Of a stretch of 25,131 bases of DNA, positions 4,145 to 16,377 are shown piece by piece; positions within the stretch are counted from its first letter, which is position 1, and the number at the start of each line of letters is the position of its first letter. The stretch is from a virus, in IMG/VR virus record IMGVR_UViG_3300042914_001359, positions 1 to 25,131 of that record. One strand, 5' to 3'. The notes under the pieces were generated by a model. It ran no database searches. It worked only from the letters and a program-made list of their open reading frames with translations, and was not told the origin of the DNA. The translations under genes and the position numbers were made by a program.

Positions 4145-7100
4145 TTACTCCACGCTGGTGAGTGCAAGGGTGTTCTTGGAGACGGTCGTGTTGACGTTCG
4201 CCCACGAGGTGAAGCGGAGCTTGAACGTCTTGTCCGTGGTGCCGCCGCTGGTGTCGGTGTAGGTGCCCGAGCCGCCTGCGCTTTGCTGGTAGTAGCCCGC
4301 CTCGCTTAGCGACGGGATAGGCGCTAACCCGAAGTTCGACCCGGTGAAGTTGAAGGTGGCGACGTCGGTATAGGAGCCGGTGCCGATCTTGCGCGAGAGC
4401 ACCACGGTGAAAGTCGGGTTTTGTTTGGTCGTGGCGTTGTAGTCGGTGAGGCCCTGCGTCGTTCCGGGGAAATCGTCGTCGCCGAGGAAATCCAGCGCCA
4501 TCGTGAGCGTGATATTCCCGCCGTTGGTCGAAATCGGCCCGAGAATGGCCTCGTTTGCGCTAGTGAGGTTCGTCCCCTGCACGCTGTTCTTGAGCACACC
4601 TGCGAGCAGCGCGCCGCCGAAGTAGGCGGTGCCGTTGGTCTTGAGGTAGTACGTCGCGTTCGATTCGGTGCAGTTGGCGAGGTTCGCCTGGTAAGGCCCA
4701 TACCACTCGATGAACTGCGACGAGCTGCCGAACGGCGCGCCGGTGACCTTCATGTAGGAGCCGGTCGTGGCGATCGTGCGGCCGTTGGAAACGTCCACCC
4801 GGAAGGTGTCGGCGGTGTTGCGGATGACGCCAGCCGTGAGCGTGCCGACGTTCGCCGAGATGGCATCGAGCGACGAGACCGAAAGTTTCGCGGCCGTGAT
4901 CGAGCCCGCGCTGACCTTGTCGGCCGTGACGGCATTGGCGGAAATGTTGGTCGCGGTGATTGCGTTCGCGGCGATCTTGTCTCCGGTGATTGTCGAGGCG
5001 GTAATCTTTTCGGCCGTGACCGCTCCGGCTGCGAGCTTGGCCGTCTCGACCGCGCCCGCAGATATCTTTGCGGCGGTAATCGCATTAGCGGCGATCTCGT
5101 TCGCGGTCACCGCATCGGCCGCGATCTTACCGGCGACGACTGCGCCGGCGGCAATCTTGGCGGCCGTGACCGCGTTCGCCGCGATCTTGTCGGCGACGAT
5201 GGCGTTAGCCTGGATTTCAGTCGCGCCGATCGCGTTCGCGGCGACTTTCCCGGCGACGACTGCGCCGGCCACGAGCTTCGGCGTGGTGACCGCATTGTCG
5301 GCGATCTCGGTCGCGGTGATGGTGCCGGGAAGGATCTCCTCCGGTCGCGGCGAGAAGCCGGACGGCAGCTCGCCCTGCTCGACCTGCGGCGCGCAGATGT
5401 CGATGGACGCGCCCGAGAATAGAAAATTAAAACCGTTCCCGCCCGGCTCAAACGAAATGTAAAGCGAGCCGACCTGCGTGTGGATATTATCGTTCGGCTG
5501 CACGCGCCACGCGTACCGCTGCCAGGTGCCGTTGATGAGCGGCGGGTTGGCGATCTGCACCGCCGGGCTGAAGCCCATGTTGGAGTAGAGGCCCTGCATC
5601 GTGCGGCCAACCGCGCCGGCGCCGTTCGAGCGAGCCCAAAACGAAATCACATAGGTTAGACCGGGCGTCCACGAATCCACGCCGGCGCCCGGCACGCCGA
5701 TATTGTTCGCGGTGTAGAGGCCGAAAGTGTTTCCGACGGTTTCGTTCGCGGTCAGGCGGAAGAAGTTACCGCCGAACAATCCGCCGGAATTGATGCTCGG
5801 CGTAACCGAATGAGCGCCGTTGTTGTAGAGGCCCCACCCAGTCGGATAGCCGCCCGCGTGCGCGCGGAAGGCCGCGTTTCCGAGAAGGTTCCCGCCGCCG
5901 ACGCCGACATTTAACTGCGACGCGACGACTTGACCGGTGACCTTCGCCGCCGCGATGTCCGCGATCTGCGCGTTCGTCAGTTGCCCGGTCACCTTGCCCG
6001 CGCCGACGGCCGCGATCTGCGAGTCCGCGAGCTGCCCGGAGATGTCCGCCGCCGGGACCGCCGTGGACCACGCCGCGCCCGTGTAGCGGTAGAGCTTATC
6101 GTCGGTGGTGAGGTACACCATCCGACCCTCGAAGAGGTTCGTGCTCGGGAGCGCGCCGACGATCTCGTAGCCGGTCTTGTTCTTCGCGAGCGTAAAGGTC
6201 GCCTGATAGGTCACGCCGCCGTAGACGGCCGAGAGCGTCAGCGTGCCGGTGTCGCCGGTCATCGCGGTGACGCGGTAGTAGCCCTTGGGCTGGCCGTTGA
6301 CCGGCGTGTTGGTCGCCGTGTTGACCGTGCCGGTGACGCCCGAGCCCGCGAGCGCCGAGAGCGTGGCCGAGGCCGTGACGTCGGTCGCGCCGTCGCGCAC
6401 CGTGACCGTGCCGACCGCGTCCGCGAACGACGGGACCGTCCCCTCGGCGAAGGCGAAAAGCTGCACCGCGTCGCGCGAGAGCGAGATCGAGACGGCGTTC
6501 GTCCCGTTGCTGCCGTTCGAGCCGTTCGAGCCATTGGTCCCGTTCGTCCCGTTCGTCCCGTTGACGCCCGCGCGCGCCTTGGTGACGCTGAAAACCTTGT
6601 CGACGGTCACGCCGCCGAAGCTTGCGCGGAAGGTCGCCGTGCCGACGTCCGCCGACATCGCGGTCGCCGAGTAGGCGCCGGTCGTGGCGTTGATCGTCGC
6701 GGTGAGGTTGCTCGATGCAAAGAGCGAGAACGTCGCCGAGGTCGTGACGTCGACCGCGCCCGCGAGCACCTTGAAGGAGCCCGACGCGCCAGCGAAGGAT
6801 GCGACCGTGCCGGCCGAGTCCGCCGCAACCGCGACAGCCTCGTTGGTGAGGTACCCGGTAACGGTCGGCGGACGCGCCGCGGCGGTGGCCGAGCTCGTGG
6901 TCGTGGCCGGATGCCAGGCGGAGACCGCCCGCTCGAGCCGCGAGCGCGCCCAGTAGAACCGGGCGACCTGATCGGCGAGGACGTGCTTGAAGTCCGAGGA
7001 CCGGCCGTCAAACACCTTGACCGCCGTGGTCCGGTCGTTGGTGGTCGAGGCGAAGATCTCGACCGCGTCATAGCTCGCGGGGTCGGTGGGAAGCGTCCAG

Positions 7101-9718
7101 GAGACGAGCACGAAGCCGTCCTGGGCGACCGCCGTCAGACCCGAGGGCGCAGGCGGGGCAGCCACCGGGTCGGCCGTTGCCGTCTCCGGAGCCGGGATGA
7201 ACTGGATGCGCTGGGCGGAGCCGGCCAGCGAGCGGCCGGAGATGACCGCCGGGTCGGGGTAGCCGGCCCACGGGTCCTCGTTGTCCGAGTAGCGGTGATA
7301 CGGCTCGTTGTCGAGGAAGGTGAGCTTGCCCGACACCTGCGCCGGCTGCGGGATGGTGCCGGTGTTGGCGATGAAGCGGTTCGTGAGATCCGGCGCAGAG
7401 ACGGCCGAGCCGTCGAGCAGCAGCAGGAACGAGCCCGGGCCGCCAGCGCCGCCCGCGCCCGGGTAGTACATGTTCGGCAGCGGTCCGTGCAGCGACGGAG
7501 CGGTCGGGCTGTTGCCGGACAGGTTGATCGTCGCCGATGCGCCGGTCGAGAAGCCGCGCGAAATGACCGCGAGCCCCGCGCCACCCGCCGCCCCCGCCCC
7601 GCCCTGCGCACGCAGGTCAGCCTTGCCGCCCGAGGTGATCTTGCCGCCCGGCCCGCCGCCGGTGCCGCGCAGGTCGGTCGGCAGGCCGGTCAAAGTGTTG
7701 CCCGAGACCGTGACCTCAAGATAGGGGAACGCGGCGTGCTTGCCCTGCGTCACGGGCACCGGGACGGTCTGCAGCCGGGCGTTGCCGTTGGCGTAGTCCT
7801 GCGCGGCGTCGATGCCGTCGAGGCCGCGGCTGTTCCCCACCCAGCCCGGGTTGCCGAGCAGCTGCACGGTCGGACTGGTGTTGTCCGCCACGCCCGCCAG
7901 ACCGCCGCCGACGCCGTTGATGGTGCCGTTGACGGTCAGGTAGCCGCGGATGCGCAGCTGCACGTTGCCACTGATGTTCAACGTGCAACCTTGAGGAATG
8001 GTCAGGTCGCCATCGTGGTACCAGATGGACCCGGACGCGGTGAGGCTAGAGCCGCCTGTGAGCGTGTAGGAGCCGGTCGCCATCACGCCCCCGGTGATGG
8101 TCGCAACCGACGAGAGCGCCGCCCCTGCGGCCGTGTAGAACGCGTTCGGGAGCGCCGTCGTGGCGGTGGTCGGGGAGAGCGCCGAGGCCGGGGACGTCGA
8201 GCCGAAGAGCTCGAGCTGCACCGCGCCGGTCTTGTGATTGACCGAGAGGTTCTGGATCTCGAAGGCGCGGTCGATGGACGCGCCCGCCCCGGCGTAGTCG
8301 CGGACGGAGGCATAGCGGACCCGCACCACGTCGCCGACCTCAAGCCGGTTGAGCGAGTGCAGCACCGTCACGGAGAGCCGCTCGGGCGGCGCGGCGTAGC
8401 GGTCGCGCAGGGCGTCGACGAGCTGGTACAGCAGGGAGTCGGTCGCCTTACCGCCGTAGAGGCCCTTGAACTTGAGGTCGAGCGGGTCGGCCTTGCCGTG
8501 CGTCGCGGCCGAGCTCGCGTCGATGAGCGCCGTCGTGCGCGTGTAGTCCGAGCCGTTCCAGTTCCAGAACACCCGGAACACGTTGTGCAGGTCGCCCATG
8601 TCATGGACGAGCTCGCCCACCTGGACGCTGTTCGACTCGTCGAGGGTGGCGACCGTGGCCGCATCCGAGAGCACGCGCGCGGCGCGGCGCAGGCCCCAGG
8701 CGCCGTCGGCGTAGACGGGCATGAAGACGCCCAGCAGCCGGCAGATCTCCTCCTCGAGGAACTTCTTGCCGTCGGTCTTCTTGAGCCCCTCGAACCGGAT
8801 CACCACGCCCGCGTTGGCGCCGTCCCAGAGATCCCCACCGATGCCGGTGAAGTCTGAGGTGCGGATGAGCGAGGTGTCGATGCCGAGGTGCCAGGACGCC
8901 GGGAGCGTCGCGGCGTCGCCGTAGAGCTGCCCCGTGAGGATGGCGTAGGCGATCTTAACCGCCGGCAGCTCGAGGTAGACGTGCTCGGTGACCTTCTCGC
9001 GGCGCGCCGCCGGAGTGGCCGCGTCCACGTCGTAGGCGGCCGCGATGGTGCCGAGGACGCCACGGACGCAGCCGGTGAAGGTGGTCGCGGTCTTGCCGGT
9101 GTAGCGGATGACCTCGTCCCGGATCTTGATATAGCCGACGGTCGCGTTCGCGGCGTCGGTGTAGGTCGGCCCGTGGTAGACGGTCGTGAAGCCGGCCGTC
9201 GAGCTCACCGTCACCGTGGTGTCGGTCGCCGAGAGGGACTGCGCGAGGGTGGTCTCGGCGAGCTCGAAGATGTCTTTCTTCGCCGACCGCTGGATGTCCG
9301 CGCAGGAGATCTGATAGCGGCCCTTGTCGAAGGTCGCCTCGGTCACCCGCTGGGTGCCCACCCGCACGAAGTCGGCAAAGGCGAGCCCGGCGTAGCCGAG
9401 GAAGAACTCGACCTGCTTGTCGCGCAGGCCAGCCGCGGCGCCGAGCCGCGAGCGGATCTCGTCGGTGAGCGTGCCCGCGAGGTCGGCCACTTGGAACGAA
9501 GCCGAGCCGATTTCCGAGCGCCCCTCGATGGGATTGAGGCGCTGCGAGACGATGCTCGGCTCGATGAGCGCGCCGTCGATGACGGCACCCGAGAGGCCCG
9601 TGATGCCGGTGTGGCTCGTGATGAGGATGGGCGTCGAGAAGTTGATGCGAACGACGAAGCGCGGCTCCTTGACGGAGGCGCTGTTCAGCTCGTTGAAGGC
9701 GGCCGGGTCGGTGCGCAT
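4145..9718 (-). CDS. Giant tail-tip hub / host-specificity fibre protein (J-like)
   Basis: 1857 residues, the largest gene here. Order of regions: N-terminal ~520 residues resemble a baseplate-hub type tail protein that docks on the tail end; about 560-830 are Gly/Ser/Asn-rich, beta-helix-like; about 855-940 form a fibronectin type III domain (PSGLTAVAQDGFVLVSWTLP); two Ig-like domains follow, joined by eight GxN triplets (1051-1074); a galactose-binding-like jelly-roll (about 1280-1440, GNAAFRAHAGGYPTGWGLYN); fourteen 10-residue repeats (1473-1612); and a ~245-residue C-terminal head likely to contact the receptor. It combines hub and side or central fibre in one chain. ATG at 9716-9718 overlaps the preceding stop by one base. 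Domain limits are estimates by eye. Confidence 0.85.
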   Translation of the reverse strand: MRTDPAAFNELNSASVKEPRFVVRINFSTPILITSHTGITGLSGAVIDGALIEPSIVSQRLNPIEGRSEIGSASFQVADLAGTLTDEIRSRLGAAAGLRDKQVEFFLGYAGLAFADFVRVGTQRVTEATFDKGRYQISCADIQRSAKKDIFELAETTLAQSLSATDTTVTVSSTAGFTTVYHGPTYTDAANATVGYIKIRDEVIRYTGKTATTFTGCVRGVLGTIAAAYDVDAATPAARREKVTEHVYLELPAVKIAYAILTGQLYGDAATLPASWHLGIDTSLIRTSDFTGIGGDLWDGANAGVVIRFEGLKKTDGKKFLEEEICRLLGVFMPVYADGAWGLRRAARVLSDAATVATLDESNSVQVGELVHDMGDLHNVFRVFWNWNGSDYTRTTALIDASSAATHGKADPLDLKFKGLYGGKATDSLLYQLVDALRDRYAAPPERLSVTVLHSLNRLEVGDVVRVRYASVRDYAGAGASIDRAFEIQNLSVNHKTGAVQLELFGSTSPASALSPTTATTALPNAFYTAAGAALSSVATITGGVMATGSYTLTGGSSLTASGSIWYHDGDLTIPQGCTLNISGNVQLRIRGYLTVNGTINGVGGGLAGVADNTSPTVQLLGNPGWVGNSRGLDGIDAAQDYANGNARLQTVPVPVTQGKHAAFPYLEVTVSGNTLTGLPTDLRGTGGGPGGKITSGGKADLRAQGGAGAAGGAGLAVISRGFSTGASATINLSGNSPTAPSLHGPLPNMYYPGAGGAGGPGSFLLLLDGSAVSAPDLTNRFIANTGTIPQPAQVSGKLTFLDNEPYHRYSDNEDPWAGYPDPAVISGRSLAGSAQRIQFIPAPETATADPVAAPPAPSGLTAVAQDGFVLVSWTLPTDPASYDAVEIFASTTNDRTTAVKVFDGRSSDFKHVLADQVARFYWARSRLERAVSAWHPATTTSSATAAARPPTVTGYLTNEAVAVAADSAGTVASFAGASGSFKVLAGAVDVTTSATFSLFASSNLTATINATTGAYSATAMSADVGTATFRASFGGVTVDKVFSVTKARAGVNGTNGTNGTNGSNGSNGSNGTNAVSISLSRDAVQLFAFAEGTVPSFADAVGTVTVRDGATDVTASATLSALAGSGVTGTVNTATNTPVNGQPKGYYRVTAMTGDTGTLTLSAVYGGVTYQATFTLAKNKTGYEIVGALPSTNLFEGRMVYLTTDDKLYRYTGAAWSTAVPAADISGQLADSQIAAVGAGKVTGQLTNAQIADIAAAKVTGQVVASQLNVGVGGGNLLGNAAFRAHAGGYPTGWGLYNNGAHSVTPSINSGGLFGGNFFRLTANETVGNTFGLYTANNIGVPGAGVDSWTPGLTYVISFWARSNGAGAVGRTMQGLYSNMGFSPAVQIANPPLINGTWQRYAWRVQPNDNIHTQVGSLYISFEPGGNGFNFLFSGASIDICAPQVEQGELPSGFSPRPEEILPGTITATEIADNAVTTPKLVAGAVVAGKVAANAIGATEIQANAIVADKIAANAVTAAKIAAGAVVAGKIAADAVTANEIAANAITAAKISAGAVETAKLAAGAVTAEKITASTITGDKIAANAITATNISANAVTADKVSAGSITAAKLSVSSLDAISANVGTLTAGVIRNTADTFRVDVSNGRTIATTGSYMKVTGAPFGSSSQFIEWYGPYQANLANCTESNATYYLKTNGTAYFGGALLAGVLKNSVQGTNLTSANEAILGPISTNGGNITLTMALDFLGDDDFPGTTQGLTDYNATTKQNPTFTVVLSRKIGTGSYTDVATFNFTGSNFGLAPIPSLSEAGYYQQSAGGSGTYTDTSGGTTDKTFKLRFTSWANVNTTVSKNTLALTSVE
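4883..5302 (-). repeat. Fourteen 30-bp repeats encoding decapeptides (fibre shaft)
   Basis: Exactly 420 bases encode 14 consecutive decapeptides of consensus AANAVTAxKI inside the giant tail protein (residues 1473-1612). Positions 5 and 10 are almost always Val/Ile/Leu and position 9 is usually Lys, with Glu or Asn in some units. This periodicity is typical of trimeric phage fibre shafts. Unit number can change by slippage, altering shaft length. Confidence 0.85.
6497..6568 (-). repeat. Collagen-like GxN triplet repeat in the tail fibre
   Basis: Eight consecutive triplets Gly-X-Asn (X = Val once, then Thr or Ser) occupy residues 1051-1074 between two Ig-like domains of the giant tail protein. 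Collagen-like Gly-x-y stretches are common trimerisation hinges in phage fibres. Here the third position is Asn throughout rather than Pro. Confidence 0.8.
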
Positions 9719-10140
9719 CAGACTTCCTCGAGGTCGAAGGAGACGCGCATGGCGTCATCGTTCGGCGTGGCGCCCGTACCGTCCAAGCGCTCGAAGTTGT
9801 AGTTGGCAGACACGCGCCGCGCGGTGTGCGTCGTGCCCATCGCGGCGACCGTGCCGTAGGGGGAGAACGTGAACGACTCGCCCGCCTCGACCGAGTGCAG
9901 GAACTCGGCCAGCGCCGCGCGCTCGGTGGCGTTGAGCACAAGCGCGATGGCCGACCAAGTGGTCTTGCCGTAGAAGTAAAGCGTCTCGGTCTTGTCTGAA
10001 AGCGACCGCTGCGTCTCCGCGCCGACCTTGCGGCCGACACCGAGACCGCCCTCGACGAGCCGCAGGTCGAGGCTGTACTGCGCGCCCGCGGTGTGGCCCG
10101 CGATGAGGCTGCGCTTCGCGGTGTAGGTCACTGCGGCCAT
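9718..10140 (-). CDS. Minor tail / distal tail protein
   Basis: A 140-residue beta-rich protein between the tape measure and the giant hub protein. Sequence landmarks are DKTETLYFYGKTTW, then LNATERAALAEFLHSVEAGESFTFSPYG and an acidic C-terminal FDLEEV. In lambda this interval holds M, L, K and I; here a single gene occupies it. By position it is the distal tail or tail-tip adaptor connecting tube and hub. ATG at 10138-10140 follows the tape measure stop by three bases, with GGAG 8 bases ahead. The exact family is not recognised. Confidence 0.7.
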   Translation of the reverse strand: MAAVTYTAKRSLIAGHTAGAQYSLDLRLVEGGLGVGRKVGAETQRSLSDKTETLYFYGKTTWSAIALVLNATERAALAEFLHSVEAGESFTFSPYGTVAAMGTTHTARRVSANYNFERLDGTGATPNDDAMRVSFDLEEV

Positions 10141-10143
10141 GCG

Positions 10144-11940
10144 TCAGGCTCCGGTGATCAGGCCAGCCTGGCGGCTGTTCCCGTTGATGAACACGACGTC
10201 GCGGTTGTTGATCGCGTCGGAGAGCTGGCCGACCAGCCAGTCGGCGGTCTCGCGCGAGGAGAACACGCTGCCCTGGATGACGACCTGCGCCACACGGGGC
10301 GCTTGCTCGGCCTGCTGCGCGTTGCCGGCGGGCTGCTGCAGGGCGCTCGGAGACGCACCCCCGGACCCGCCGCCGAAGCTGGTGGCGTTCGTCCCGGGGT
10401 TGGTCGCCTTGATCTGCTTGACCTGCTTGTAGCCGTTGGCGAGGACGGCAGCCGCTGCGGCGATGTTCGCCGGGAACGGCACCTCGCGAAGCGCGCGGGT
10501 GGCGCCGACCGACGTGCTGATGATGGCCTGCGCGATGGCGAACTTCTTGTCGCTGGCGAACAGCGCGCCCATGATCGAGCCCGCCGTCGAGACCAGCGAC
10601 TGGCGCAGCGTCATCTCGCGCTCGAACTGCGAGGTCTGCAGCTGCTCCTGGGAGATGGCAAACACCGACGCCATGTCGCCCAGGATGGTGTTTTGCTGCG
10701 CGACTGCGTTGATACGGCCCGAGATCTGCTGCGCGTCGATGCCCGCGAGGATGGACGCGTTGTCGAACGCGAGCATTTGCAGGTTCGAGAAGTGCAGCGC
10801 GGTCAGGTCGTACTCGCGCTTGAAGTTCTTCTCGCGCTCCGCCTGGTCGCGCTCGCGGATCTCCGCCGGGGTGAGCGCACGCTGGCCGCCCTTCCCGCCG
10901 CCGCCGGCACCACCGCCGCCCAAGTTGGGGACCTGCGGCTGCATGATGTCGACCGGGACCGTCGTGGGGGCGCTGGTCAGGGCCCCGGCCGCAGCCGCCC
11001 GCATGGCGTCGATCTCGGCACGCACGCCACGGATGGCCTGCTCAAGGCCGCGACGGCCGAGCACCACGCCCTGCCCTTCGACGTATCCGAAATTGAAGAA
11101 AAGCGGGATGGAGTCCCGCGATTCCTGCAGGATCTCGAGCTTGCGCTGCAGCTTCTCGAGCTCGCCGCCGCCGCCCGTCAGGATGCGCAGCGACTTGATC
11201 CACTCGTTCGTCTCCCGCAGGAGCGGGACGAGGATGGTGGACGCGAGCGCGGTGAGCTCGATGGCGGTGTTCTTCGCGCCGGTCGTGAGGACGTCGAGCT
11301 GGTCGCCCAAGGTGTCGACGTTGGCGATCGCCTGCGCCGAGACCGGGCCGCCGATGGCGGAGAGCTGCGCCGCCACCTCCTCGCCGTTGGCTCCCAGGGC
11401 GACCAGCGTCGGGATGAGCTCCGCGCCCGAGCGCCCGAAGAGCGCCATCGCGGCGGTGGTCCGCTCGGCGGGGTCCTCGATAGCCGCGATCTTCTGCGCG
11501 ATGGCTTCGAACTGCTGGTCCGGGGCGAGCGCGAGGATCTGCTGGGCAGAGAGGCCGAGCCGGTCGAGCGCGGCGACCGCTTCCTTGCCGCCCTCCTCCG
11601 CGCCCACGAGCGCCTTCTGCATCCGCGCGACGGCGCCAGAGACGCCCTCGAGCGAGCCGCCCGAGAGCGTCGCCGCGAACTGCAGCCGCTGCAGGGCGTC
11701 GACCGACATGCCGGTCTTGACCGCGGTGTCGTTCAGCGCGCCGGCGGCCTGCATCGCTTGGGTGACGACCGCCGCCATCGAGAACGTGGCGACGATGCCG
11801 CCCAAGTTCTTGAACGCACCGGACAGCGCGGAGACTCCGCTGTCGGTCTTCTTCAGCTCGCCCTTCACGCGGTCGAGCTCGGAGCGCATCTGCGCCGAGT
11901 CCGCCGCCATCCGGACGACCAACGTGCCGATGTCAGCCAT
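10144..11940 (-). CDS. Tail tape measure protein
   Basis: A 598-residue, largely helical protein, Ala/Gln/Glu-rich. The N-terminal part (DIGTLVVRMAADSAQMRSEL...VKGELKKTDSG) is coiled-coil-like, followed by a region typical of tape measures (MSVDALQRLQFAATLSG...RMQKAL), a Gly-rich linker near residue 340 and a C-terminal segment with a hydrophobic patch (PANIAAAAAVLANGY). Tape measures set tail length at about 0.15 nm per residue, so about 90 nm would be expected, a medium-short siphovirus tail. It starts right after the tail chaperone pair, overlapping the frameshifted product's stop by eight bases, as in lambda G/GT-H. The protein also helps DNA pass the membrane during injection. Confidence 0.9.
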   Translation of the reverse strand: MADIGTLVVRMAADSAQMRSELDRVKGELKKTDSGVSALSGAFKNLGGIVATFSMAAVVTQAMQAAGALNDTAVKTGMSVDALQRLQFAATLSGGSLEGVSGAVARMQKALVGAEEGGKEAVAALDRLGLSAQQILALAPDQQFEAIAQKIAAIEDPAERTTAAMALFGRSGAELIPTLVALGANGEEVAAQLSAIGGPVSAQAIANVDTLGDQLDVLTTGAKNTAIELTALASTILVPLLRETNEWIKSLRILTGGGGELEKLQRKLEILQESRDSIPLFFNFGYVEGQGVVLGRRGLEQAIRGVRAEIDAMRAAAAGALTSAPTTVPVDIMQPQVPNLGGGGAGGGGKGGQRALTPAEIRERDQAEREKNFKREYDLTALHFSNLQMLAFDNASILAGIDAQQISGRINAVAQQNTILGDMASVFAISQEQLQTSQFEREMTLRQSLVSTAGSIMGALFASDKKFAIAQAIISTSVGATRALREVPFPANIAAAAAVLANGYKQVKQIKATNPGTNATSFGGGSGGASPSALQQPAGNAQQAEQAPRVAQVVIQGSVFSSRETADWLVGQLSDAINNRDVVFINGNSRQAGLITGA

Positions 11941-12609
11941 GATTCACTCCGCCAACCATCGCGGCGAGGATGCGCCGCTGTTCTTCCACCGACTGGCCGC
12001 GCTCGGGCTCGGCCTTGCGCGCCGGGACAAAGTCCTCGACGCGCCAGCTCTTGCCGTTGCGCTTCGGCCCGGCAGCGTTCGCCACCGTCGAGGCCACCAT
12101 GCCCATCCGCCAGTTCTCCACCTCGAAGCCGAAAGGCTCGAGCTGGAAGAACGCGCCCCAGGTCGTGAACTCTTCGGAGCTCATCCGCTCCTGCAGCTCA
12201 CCGACCGGGATGCCGAACTGCGCCGCGAGCCGGAACCAGAGCAGCAGCTCCGGCTCGCGTGTCAGTTTTTTTCGGCGGCCTCGTCGGCACCCTTGCCGAG
12301 CCCGGACGCCTCGATCACCGCCTTGGCGATCGCGGAGACCGAGGCCCCGTCGAGCGCCGCCACGTCGTCGACCGCGTCGAACAGGCGCACGCCGTCGGCG
12401 TCGCAGAGCCCCATCCAGGCGACCCGGTGGTCGGAGACCGGCTCGCCGCCAGCCTCAGCCTCGGCCGCCCACTTCTGCAGCTGGACGCGCTCGGCGCCAG
12501 AGAGGCCCCGGACGAAGAGCTCGACGCCGGCCACGGTGATCGGACGGACCGATGCCTTGGCAAGCGTCGAGCTGATCTGTGCCCGCAGGAGATCCCGGGA
12601 CGCCGGCAT
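11933..12609 (-). CDS. Tail assembly chaperone, long -1 frameshift product (GT-like fusion)
   Basis: A -1 shift at the A-AAA-AAC heptamer (12265-12271) joins the short chaperone frame to an overlapping frame and gives a ~225-residue fusion: 115 residues of the short form plus 110 of the extension. The extension reads LTREPELLLWFRLAAQFGIPV, then GELQERMSSEEFTTWGAFF and ANAAGPKRNGK, which resembles the T domain of lambda GT-type chaperones (a Leu-rich start, E-L, W-x-F/Y, LEPFG). The fusion product recruits tail tube subunits onto the tape measure during assembly. The extension alone has an internal ATG at 12184, but that lacks the first 27 residues of the domain, so frameshifting is favoured. 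Join, minus strand: 12609-12266 then 12266-11933 approximately. Confidence 0.85.
12224..12272 (-). promoter_or_regulatory. Programmed -1 frameshift signal: slippery heptamer, spacer and stem-loop
   Basis: Seven A residues then C (minus strand, 12272-12265) contain A-AAA-AAC in the zero frame of the short chaperone, two codons from its stop. Five bases further on begins an 11-bp perfect stem: CGCGAGCCGGA (12259-12249) pairs with TCCGGCTCGCG (12234-12224) around a 14-base loop. Slippery site, 5-base spacer and GC-rich stem are the standard elements of bacterial -1 frameshifting. Confidence 0.88.
12262..12609 (-). CDS. Tail assembly chaperone, short form (G-like)
   Basis: A 115-residue mostly helical, acidic protein (MPASRDLLRAQISSTLAKAS ... 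ELFVRGLSGAERVQLQKWA) ending EAAEKN. Size, position between tail tube and tape measure, and the frameshift signal at its last codons identify it as the G-type tail assembly chaperone. It would coat the tape measure and keep it soluble while tube protein polymerises, and is absent from the finished virion. Its ATG overlaps the TAA of the tail tube gene (TAATG), implying coupled translation. Most ribosomes should stop at 12262-12264; a minority shift to make the long form. Confidence 0.85.
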   Translation of the reverse strand: MPASRDLLRAQISSTLAKASVRPITVAGVELFVRGLSGAERVQLQKWAAEAEAGGEPVSDHRVAWMGLCDADGVRLFDAVDDVAALDGASVSAIAKAVIEASGLGKGADEAAEKN

Positions 12610-13034
12610 TACGGGGTTACCGTCGGCAGCGCGGTCAGCTCGAGCGTGGCGTTGACCACGATCTCGCCGCCCTCAGCCGTGAGGCTGTCGATCTCGAACT
12701 TCGTGAAGAAGCCGCGGACCTGCACCTGGTACGCGCCCGGGTCGGGGAGCGTGATGCGGTAATTGTGCTGCGTGCCGGCGAGCAGCCGGGTGCGCATGGC
12801 CTCGTGGGTGGTGTCGGCCGGGTCCCAGAGGAGCTTGAGCTCGACGTTCTGCGGGTCGTGCGTGCCGACCATGCGCTCGGGGTAGCTCGAGCCGAGGACG
12901 TAGGCGTCCACGACCTTGCGGGCGTATCCCGACCACTTGACCTCCTGAACCTGCGCGACCGCGGCGAACACCTCGGTCGGGGTCGCGCCGTCGCCGGCCG
13001 AGAACACCGTGCCGGTGGAAATGTATGCGGGCAT
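12609..13034 (-). CDS. Major tail tube protein
   Basis: A 141-residue beta-rich protein (MPAYISTGTVFSAGDGATPTEVF ... EVKWSGYARKVVDAYVLGSS ... RITLPDPGAYQVQVRGFFTKFEID). It has the features of lambda gpV-type tail tube proteins: an N-terminal arm, the VxFxGYV-like central strand and a C-terminal strand pair. It would polymerise as stacked hexamers around the tape measure. The SD GGAG is 7 bases ahead of ATG 13032-13034. An intrinsic terminator sits just upstream, so this abundant product may need antitermination, readthrough or a local promoter. Confidence 0.85.
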   Translation of the reverse strand: MPAYISTGTVFSAGDGATPTEVFAAVAQVQEVKWSGYARKVVDAYVLGSSYPERMVGTHDPQNVELKLLWDPADTTHEAMRTRLLAGTQHNYRITLPDPGAYQVQVRGFFTKFEIDSLTAEGGEIVVNATLELTALPTVTP

Positions 13035-15157: not shown

Positions 15158-15185
15158 GGGGGCGGGGGCCGAAGCCCCCGCCCCC
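15158..15185 (-). terminator. Strong GC hairpin with UUCG loop after the capsid gene (attenuator or mRNA cap)
   Basis: On the minus strand the 12-base arm GGGGGCGGGGGC (15185-15174), loop TTCG, and its perfect complement (15169-15158). It begins 34 bases after the capsid stop. There is no immediate T run; four T occur nine bases further on. So it may be a weak terminator or a 3' mRNA stabiliser rather than a full stop. Confidence 0.7.
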
Positions 15186-15219: not shown

Positions 15220-16377
15220 TTAGGCCGGGGTGAGGTCGCCGGCGCGGATCGCGGCCGGGATCTCGGTGGCGAGCGCGAGACGGCGCTCGGCACGGATCGT
15301 CACGAGGTTCTTCGTGAAGTTGTCCGAGTCCGAGTCGCTCAGCTCGACGACCACTCCCTCGCGGTTGTAGATCATCGAGGCCTGCGCGAACGCGCCGACC
15401 GCCACGTTGTCGAGCGTCATGCCGACGCTGGCGACGACGGGCAGGCCGAACAGGGTCGGCCGACCGGCGACGTCCACGGCCACGCGCGCCGTGTTGCCGC
15501 TGCCCGCGACCATGAGGTCGCACTCGATCTGAGCCCAGTCCACCGGGTTCAGCACGATGCCGTCCGGCGCGTAGCCGGCGTTCTGCAGGTCGCCGATGAT
15601 CTTGCGGATCAGGACGAGCTTCTTCAGCACCGTGCCGAGGTTCGCGTCGGCGTAGCCGTGCGCGGTGAAGTTCCCGGCGTTGAGGAACCCGCTGATGTTC
15701 GGCGCGGTGCCGTTGCCCGAGACGAGCTGCGTCTCGACGCGACGGTTGACGCCGTAGGTCATGCGGGCGTTGACGTAGGCCGCGAGCGCGGAGTTGTCGG
15801 CCGCGAGCTGGCGGCTGATCTTGATCCAGTGAGCGACGGTGCTCACCGGCATGTTGACCAGCGACCAGGTCAGGTCGGTCTCCGGCTTCGCCACGCCCTC
15901 GGCGCGCTCCGCGGCGTTGTTCACGAACGAGGCCTCGCGCGTGAACTCGATCGCGTTGCTCGAGGTGGCGGTCGACGGCAGGAGCGACTCGAGGGTCAGG
16001 ACCGGCGCGGCGCCCGGGACGATGCCCGGCCGACGATCCGGCGCGACGTTGGCGTCGCTACCCGTGAGGGTGTTCTTGACCTCGACGCGCGCCTTGCCGG
16101 TCTGGCCGGCGGCGAACGCCTGGTACTTCTCACTCTTGACGAGCTGAGCACCCCAGGACTGGTCCGGCGCGGTCGTCTCGCCGCGACCCGAGCCCTTCTG
16201 CTCGAGCACGACCAAGCGGTCGGCCATCTCGCGCTGCTGGACGCCGAGGGCGTCGATCGCAGCCTTGGTCTCGGTCGACACGCGACCGGCCTCCTTGACC
16301 TCGCGGTCCGCCTTCTCGGCGAACGTGGCGAGGTTGCGCTCGATGGTCTCGAGCGACTTGATGACGGCTTCCGTCAT
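15220..16377 (-). CDS. Major capsid protein, HK97 gp5 family
   Basis: 385 residues, the same length I recall for HK97 gp5. Residues 1-62 are a helical delta (scaffold) domain (TIERNLATFAEKADREVKEA), to be removed by the protease near residue 100. The mature part has the HK97 fold markers: SSNAIEFTREASFVNNAAE, KPETDLTWSLV (E-loop), TVAHWIKISRQLA, YGVNRRVETQLVSGNGT, GIVLNPVDW and NFTKNLVTIRAERRLAL. Aligned from memory, K164, N357 and E364 match HK97 K169, N356 and E363, the cross-link pair and its catalyst. A strong SD, AGGAG, lies 7 bases ahead of ATG. It is followed by a hairpin that limits downstream transcription. Confidence 0.95.
   Translation of the reverse strand: MTEAVIKSLETIERNLATFAEKADREVKEAGRVSTETKAAIDALGVQQREMADRLVVLEQKGSGRGETTAPDQSWGAQLVKSEKYQAFAAGQTGKARVEVKNTLTGSDANVAPDRRPGIVPGAAPVLTLESLLPSTATSSNAIEFTREASFVNNAAERAEGVAKPETDLTWSLVNMPVSTVAHWIKISRQLAADNSALAAYVNARMTYGVNRRVETQLVSGNGTAPNISGFLNAGNFTAHGYADANLGTVLKKLVLIRKIIGDLQNAGYAPDGIVLNPVDWAQIECDLMVAGSGNTARVAVDVAGRPTLFGLPVVASVGMTLDNVAVGAFAQASMIYNREGVVVELSDSDSDNFTKNLVTIRAERRLALATEIPAAIRAGDLTPA

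Follow-up and report, generated by a model that had tools for sequence, protein, structure and literature searches.

Here we analyse a candidate -1 frameshift site in a tail assembly chaperone gene of a virus, located on the minus strand of a 25,131-nucleotide (nt) stretch of DNA, IMG/VR record IMGVR_UViG_3300042914_001359, which is referred to as the window in the following. The zero-frame open reading frame (ORF; 12262..12609, minus strand) encodes a G-like tail assembly chaperone of 115 amino acids, which matches phrog_344 (tail assembly chaperone, E = 7.4e-15). Its protein gave no Pfam match, the NCBIfam search returned nothing, and as a query in the protein search it matched no phage record, which is why the named relatives discussed below were drawn via the T domain described in the next section.

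Architecture of the frameshift site

The chaperone gene, located 5' of the tape measure gene, terminates with GAA-AAA-AAC-TGA, and the minus strand reads GAC GAG GCC GCC GAA AAA AAC TGA CA CGCGAGCCGGA GCTGCTGCTCTGGT TCCGGCTCGCG across the site. The slippery heptamer A_AAA_AAC (12265..12271, minus) is in phase and forms the last two sense codons (AAA AAC) of the zero frame, its 3' end abutting the TGA stop (12262..12264, minus). A spacer of 5 nt (TGACA) leads to a putative stimulatory stem, whose 5' arm CGCGAGCCGGA (12249..12259, minus) and 3' arm TCCGGCTCGCG (12224..12234, minus) emerge from the fold, an inverted-repeat scan and the pairing in relatives. The stem consists of 11 perfect base pairs (bp), with 14 nt (GCTGCTGCTCTGGT) between the arms; in the predicted fold it grows to 14 pairs with a loop of 8 nt. 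Folding of 66 nt yields -37.2 kcal/mol (z = -5.0), and none of 200 shuffled sequences was equally stable. Heptamer, spacer and stem are thus found as proposed by a first-pass annotation made from the letters of the window, and the two arms encode (R)EPE and FRLA, which that annotation had given as REPE and FRLA. A Shine-Dalgarno (SD)-like GAGG (12279..12282, minus) about 7-8 nt 5' of the heptamer had been missed; the anti-SD energy dips at its position in a scan along the genes. As the window contains AAAAAAC two times, where 0.48 occurrences would be expected, the heptamer by itself proves little, and it is the phase, the contact with the stop and the conservation that count.

The -1 frame extension comprises 112 codons and a stop (11933..12271, minus) and contains a T domain (PF06223, Phage_tail_T, E = 4.9e-16, exceeding the curated cut-off; phrog_337, E = 3.6e-20). 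The predicted fusion has 115 + 110 = 225 amino acids, in agreement with the product of about 225 residues expected earlier, and the T-like domain ends, as anticipated, at the start of the tape measure gene, the stop of the extension overlapping the ATG at 11940 by 8 nt. This 3' neighbour (10144..11940, minus) matches phrog_9483 (tail length tape measure, E = 1.7e-35), while the 5' neighbour (12609..13034, minus) matches phrog_158 (major tail protein, E = 3.6e-9), its stop overlapping the chaperone ATG as TAATG. The chaperone therefore sits between the major tail protein and the tape measure, in the order major tail protein, G, T, tape measure, which corresponds to the order G, G-T, H of lambda-like siphophages.

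Codons 4-29 of the -1 frame precede the first start codon of that frame in the window, an ATG at codon 30 (12184). The mean ratio of nonsynonymous to synonymous polymorphism (pN/pS) of these codons is 0.36, compared to 1.47 and 2.35 for the other two frames over the same bases. Since the ratio is low in the -1 frame only, the stretch appears to be read as protein in that frame and to be under purifying selection. This finding bears on the possibility that T is translated on its own from an internal start at codon 30, without any fusion. Such a start would be served by an AGGAG just 5' of the ATG, the Pfam match to T begins at residue 31, and T is annotated as a gene of its own in some named phages. 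However, the codons under protein-level selection lie upstream of this ATG and within the phrog_337 match, relative L090 possesses no ATG at codon 30, and an internal start leaves heptamer, stop and hairpin unexplained. We hence regard it as extremely unlikely.

Conservation of the signal in relatives

Heptamer conservation was judged from searches that are blind to the heptamer, while pattern scans, which required the heptamer and the FRLA codons, were used for the hairpin and SD-like tests only. IMG/VR protein searches returned up to 48 loci per query and, together with the window, 19 distinct junction sequences; L098, the farthest from the window, shows 36% identity in the extension. In all 19 the in-phase heptamer, the adjoining stop and a 3' hairpin are kept; relatives with both frames but without heptamer and stem, which according to the first-pass annotation would speak against frameshifting, were looked for and not seen. 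In L098 the loop differs and the stem is perfect (CGCGAGCCGGAG/CTCCGGCTCGCG). In the named helix 91.7% of cells are paired, compared to 29-49% when the helix is slid, and two stem pairs show changes on both sides in an alignment of 18 distinct sequences. Moreover, a stop immediately 5' of the heptamer closes the -1 frame in 6 of the 19 junction sequences, so that in these six the shift is possible only at the heptamer.

The heptamer takes the forms AAAAAAC, AAAAAAA, GGGAAAC and GGGAAAT among the 19 sequences. These variants are informative with respect to slippage of the polymerase on the A run, which would produce an mRNA with an extra A and the same fusion without any ribosomal slip. The run of seven A in the window, and of eight in some relatives, is in line with this mechanism. 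Yet in close relatives the run gives way to GGGAAAC or GGGAAAT, with no run longer than 3, and all other parts are retained, so that polymerase slippage is disfavored as a shared mechanism; the selected 3' hairpin and the SD-like element likewise point to the ribosome. Transcriptional slippage is thus very unlikely. Ribosomes might also reinitiate at a CTG that overlaps the stop; this reading was rejected, as relatives show CTAA or ATAG at that place.

Loci selected by their tape measure gene, again blind to the heptamer, carry a heptamer at the junction in 26 of 28 distinct cases, and the remaining two have no T gene next to the tape measure. In 299 bacterial genomes, 14 Phage_tail_T genes were found, of which 12 show A_AAA_AAC, A_AAA_AAG or G_GGA_AAG at the junction; the two exceptions are distant, one (L339) having A_AAA_AAT and the other (L343) GGAAAAG without a strict heptamer. 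Ten of the 11 named phages examined possess a heptamer, the distant P1312 having none by the strict rule, and for Bcep176, KS9, phiSASD1 and Dubu the existing annotation joins the two frames into a frameshift product. A scan of genome contigs yielded one distant relative only, from Microbulbifer.

Selection on the RNA

Two IMG/VR pattern scans gave at least 212 usable loci, at least 195 of them with exactly the spacing of the window. Among the matches listed, 64 representatives with less than 75% identity were chosen, which together with the window make up the 65 phages considered here. Their mean hairpin energy is -21.4 kcal/mol, compared to -14.8 kcal/mol after shuffling (Z = -16.8), and 72% of them lie beyond one standard deviation. 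In the shuffles, protein, codon usage and FRLA codons stay unchanged; since relatedness is not modelled, the Z value is no formal probability. In a scan along the genes the signal is local and by far strongest at the frameshift site. Individual hairpins differ in this respect: those of L066 and L098 are clearly past expectation, and that of L075 does not exceed it. Selection on the RNA is shown by the family only, while the stability of the window stem stems mostly from the amino acids and GC-rich codons.

An SD-like element is found 6-17 nt 5' of the heptamer in 55 of the 65 representatives, compared to 19% at control positions. Codon shuffles already give 47.0 ± 2.8; much of this frequency is therefore due to a conserved Glu-rich stretch, and some to codon choice. 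The resulting layout, as predicted from sequence, is that of the dnaX and IS911 cassettes, with a selected hairpin 5-8 nt 3' of the heptamer (here 5 nt) and an SD-like element 6-17 nt 5' of it.

These data also address the question of whether heptamer and hairpin could have arisen by chance in GC-rich coding DNA. In favor of chance, 15 of 5017 segments of the minus strand fold equally well, and the encoded amino acids with GC-rich codons alone provide a mean of -21 kcal/mol. Chance does not, however, account for a position and phase kept over the 19 junction sequences and dozens more phages, nor for the codon-shuffle Z value of the 65 phages, and its probability is negligible.

Interpretation and mechanism

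The site is almost certainly a programmed -1 ribosomal frameshift site like that of lambda G/G-T. Our analysis bases this reading on the anatomy of the site and its conservation, on homology and gene order, on selection for coding in the -1 frame and on selection acting on the RNA across the family. The assignment to a tail chaperone made in the first-pass annotation is likewise supported by domains, gene order, conservation and the purifying selection acting on the -1 frame.

Several observations weigh against this interpretation. The central C-G pair of the stem is lost in 7 and the closing pair in 9 of the 18 distinct aligned sequences. The window hairpin (-29.1 kcal/mol) has to be compared with the mean of -21 kcal/mol expected from amino acids and GC-rich codons; in the codon test on the window alone, 39 of 1000 shuffles did as well (p = 0.04, best 4%), and a stricter shuffle gives p = 0.27. 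Thus, the joint constraint on RNA and protein that had been proposed holds for the family and not at the window site taken alone. Furthermore, A_AAA_AAC is weak in E. coli, where it slips much less than A_AAA_AAG (PMC5009743, PMC4066793), and the earlier description of the signal as near-ideal is wrong for E. coli ribosomes. For mammalian ribosomes A_AAA_AAC is among the best heptamers (PMC5009743, PMC4066793). Moderate slippage would suit a low G-T output and hence the chaperone ratio.

In the proposed mechanism, most ribosomes would terminate at TGA and release the 115-amino-acid G-like chaperone. A small share would pause at the hairpin, the base of which is about 5 nt past the heptamer, and slip from A_AAA_AAC to AAA_AAA, probably assisted by anti-SD pairing to the 5' GAGG; SD-like stimulators within genes have been described for dnaX and many insertion sequence (IS) elements (PMC5009743). 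The slipped ribosomes would continue via CTG ACA CGC and produce the 225-amino-acid G-T fusion, the T domain of which is expected to connect the complex of tape measure and chaperone to the major tail protein. Slippage in the host and its efficiency we infer, and the chaperone roles are assumed by analogy with lambda, where low-level -1 frameshifting sets a ratio of G to G-T of about 30:1, the tape measure is bound by G, and the major tail protein is brought in by T (PMC5009743). Frameshifting was measured at 6% and 7% for two genes from an HK97-like chaperone cluster (PMC3711429).

Comparison with known systems

The window resembles lambda G/G-T in the location of the gene, which is flanked by major tail protein and tape measure, in the PF06223 T-family -1 extension and in the apparent low-level -1 design; the comparison covers these features. 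Possible differences are the stop abutting the heptamer, the evident hairpin and the SD-like element in the window. In gp12-gp13 of the Acinetobacter phage vB_AbaS_Loki, AAAAAAC likewise adjoins the stop of the chaperone gene, a likeness at the level of the motif; the cited passage does not discuss a hairpin (PMC5313236). AAAAAAC also serves as shift site in gp93/gp94 of the Caulobacter phage phiCbK, and its relative Colossus has GGGAAAC, the same exchange as among the relatives of the window (PMC3556154); both are large prolate siphophages and not among the homologs found for the window.

Homologous T domains are found in the Psychrobacter phage Psymv2 and the Moraxella phage Mcat11, where GCA/GAA-AAA-AAC-TAA again places the stop next to the heptamer. 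Both are annotated with two separate genes; Psymv2 lacks a strong hairpin and Mcat11 has an unrelated 6-bp stem. In Mcat11 (611-640 of that locus) A_AAA_AAC-TAA is followed by a GCCGAC/GTCGGC hairpin and then a run of T, so that this possible frameshift hairpin resembles an intrinsic terminator within the coding overlap. The Streptomyces phages phiSASD1 and Dubu, with T homologs in their joined products, have G_GGA_AAC followed by TGA and weaker predicted hairpins. The -1 cassettes of E. coli dnaX and IS911 consist of the same three parts, SD-like element, A-rich heptamer and hairpin (PMC5009743, PMC4066793), in unrelated genes; the dnaX heptamer is A_AAA_AAG, and about half of the ribosomes shift.

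The signal in the window is real, strongly conserved and of a well-known kind, the motif being already published for Loki and phiCbK. There is about an even chance that many, mostly uncultivated tailed phages share a compact cassette of SD-like GGAG/GAGG, heptamer with adjoining stop, and hairpin, with codons at the beginning of the T domain (RP/EP...FRLA) selected so as to form the hairpin and with a heptamer that switches between A- and G-type. Cassettes of this type are known; how widespread this one is and how strong its double coding is may be unreported. The data support that an uncultivated phage builds its tail by the lambda-type G/G-T scheme, and for annotation they mean one gene with two products. 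The relatives furthermore constitute a natural set for the trade-offs between heptamer, stop, SD-like element and hairpin that set the chaperone ratio, notably where AAAAAAC and GGGAAAC are exchanged.

Other features of the window

A perfect 12-bp hairpin of G and C only (GGGGGCGGGGGC, loop TTCG) is present at 15158-15185 (minus), just 3' of an ORF of 385 amino acids (15220-16377, minus) which by appearance is a candidate major capsid gene. Because a T run directly after it is missing, this hairpin is perhaps a processing or attenuation element rather than a classic terminator. An ORF of 1857 amino acids (4145-9718, minus) has a C-terminal part rich in the short repeats ITAAKIAAGAV/VTADKI and is tail-fibre-like. 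Long plus-strand ORFs run antisense to the tail genes at 10436-12655 (739 amino acids), 10093-12168 (691 amino acids) and 5930-8857 (975 amino acids), one of them covering the frameshift site; they are probably a by-product of the high GC content.
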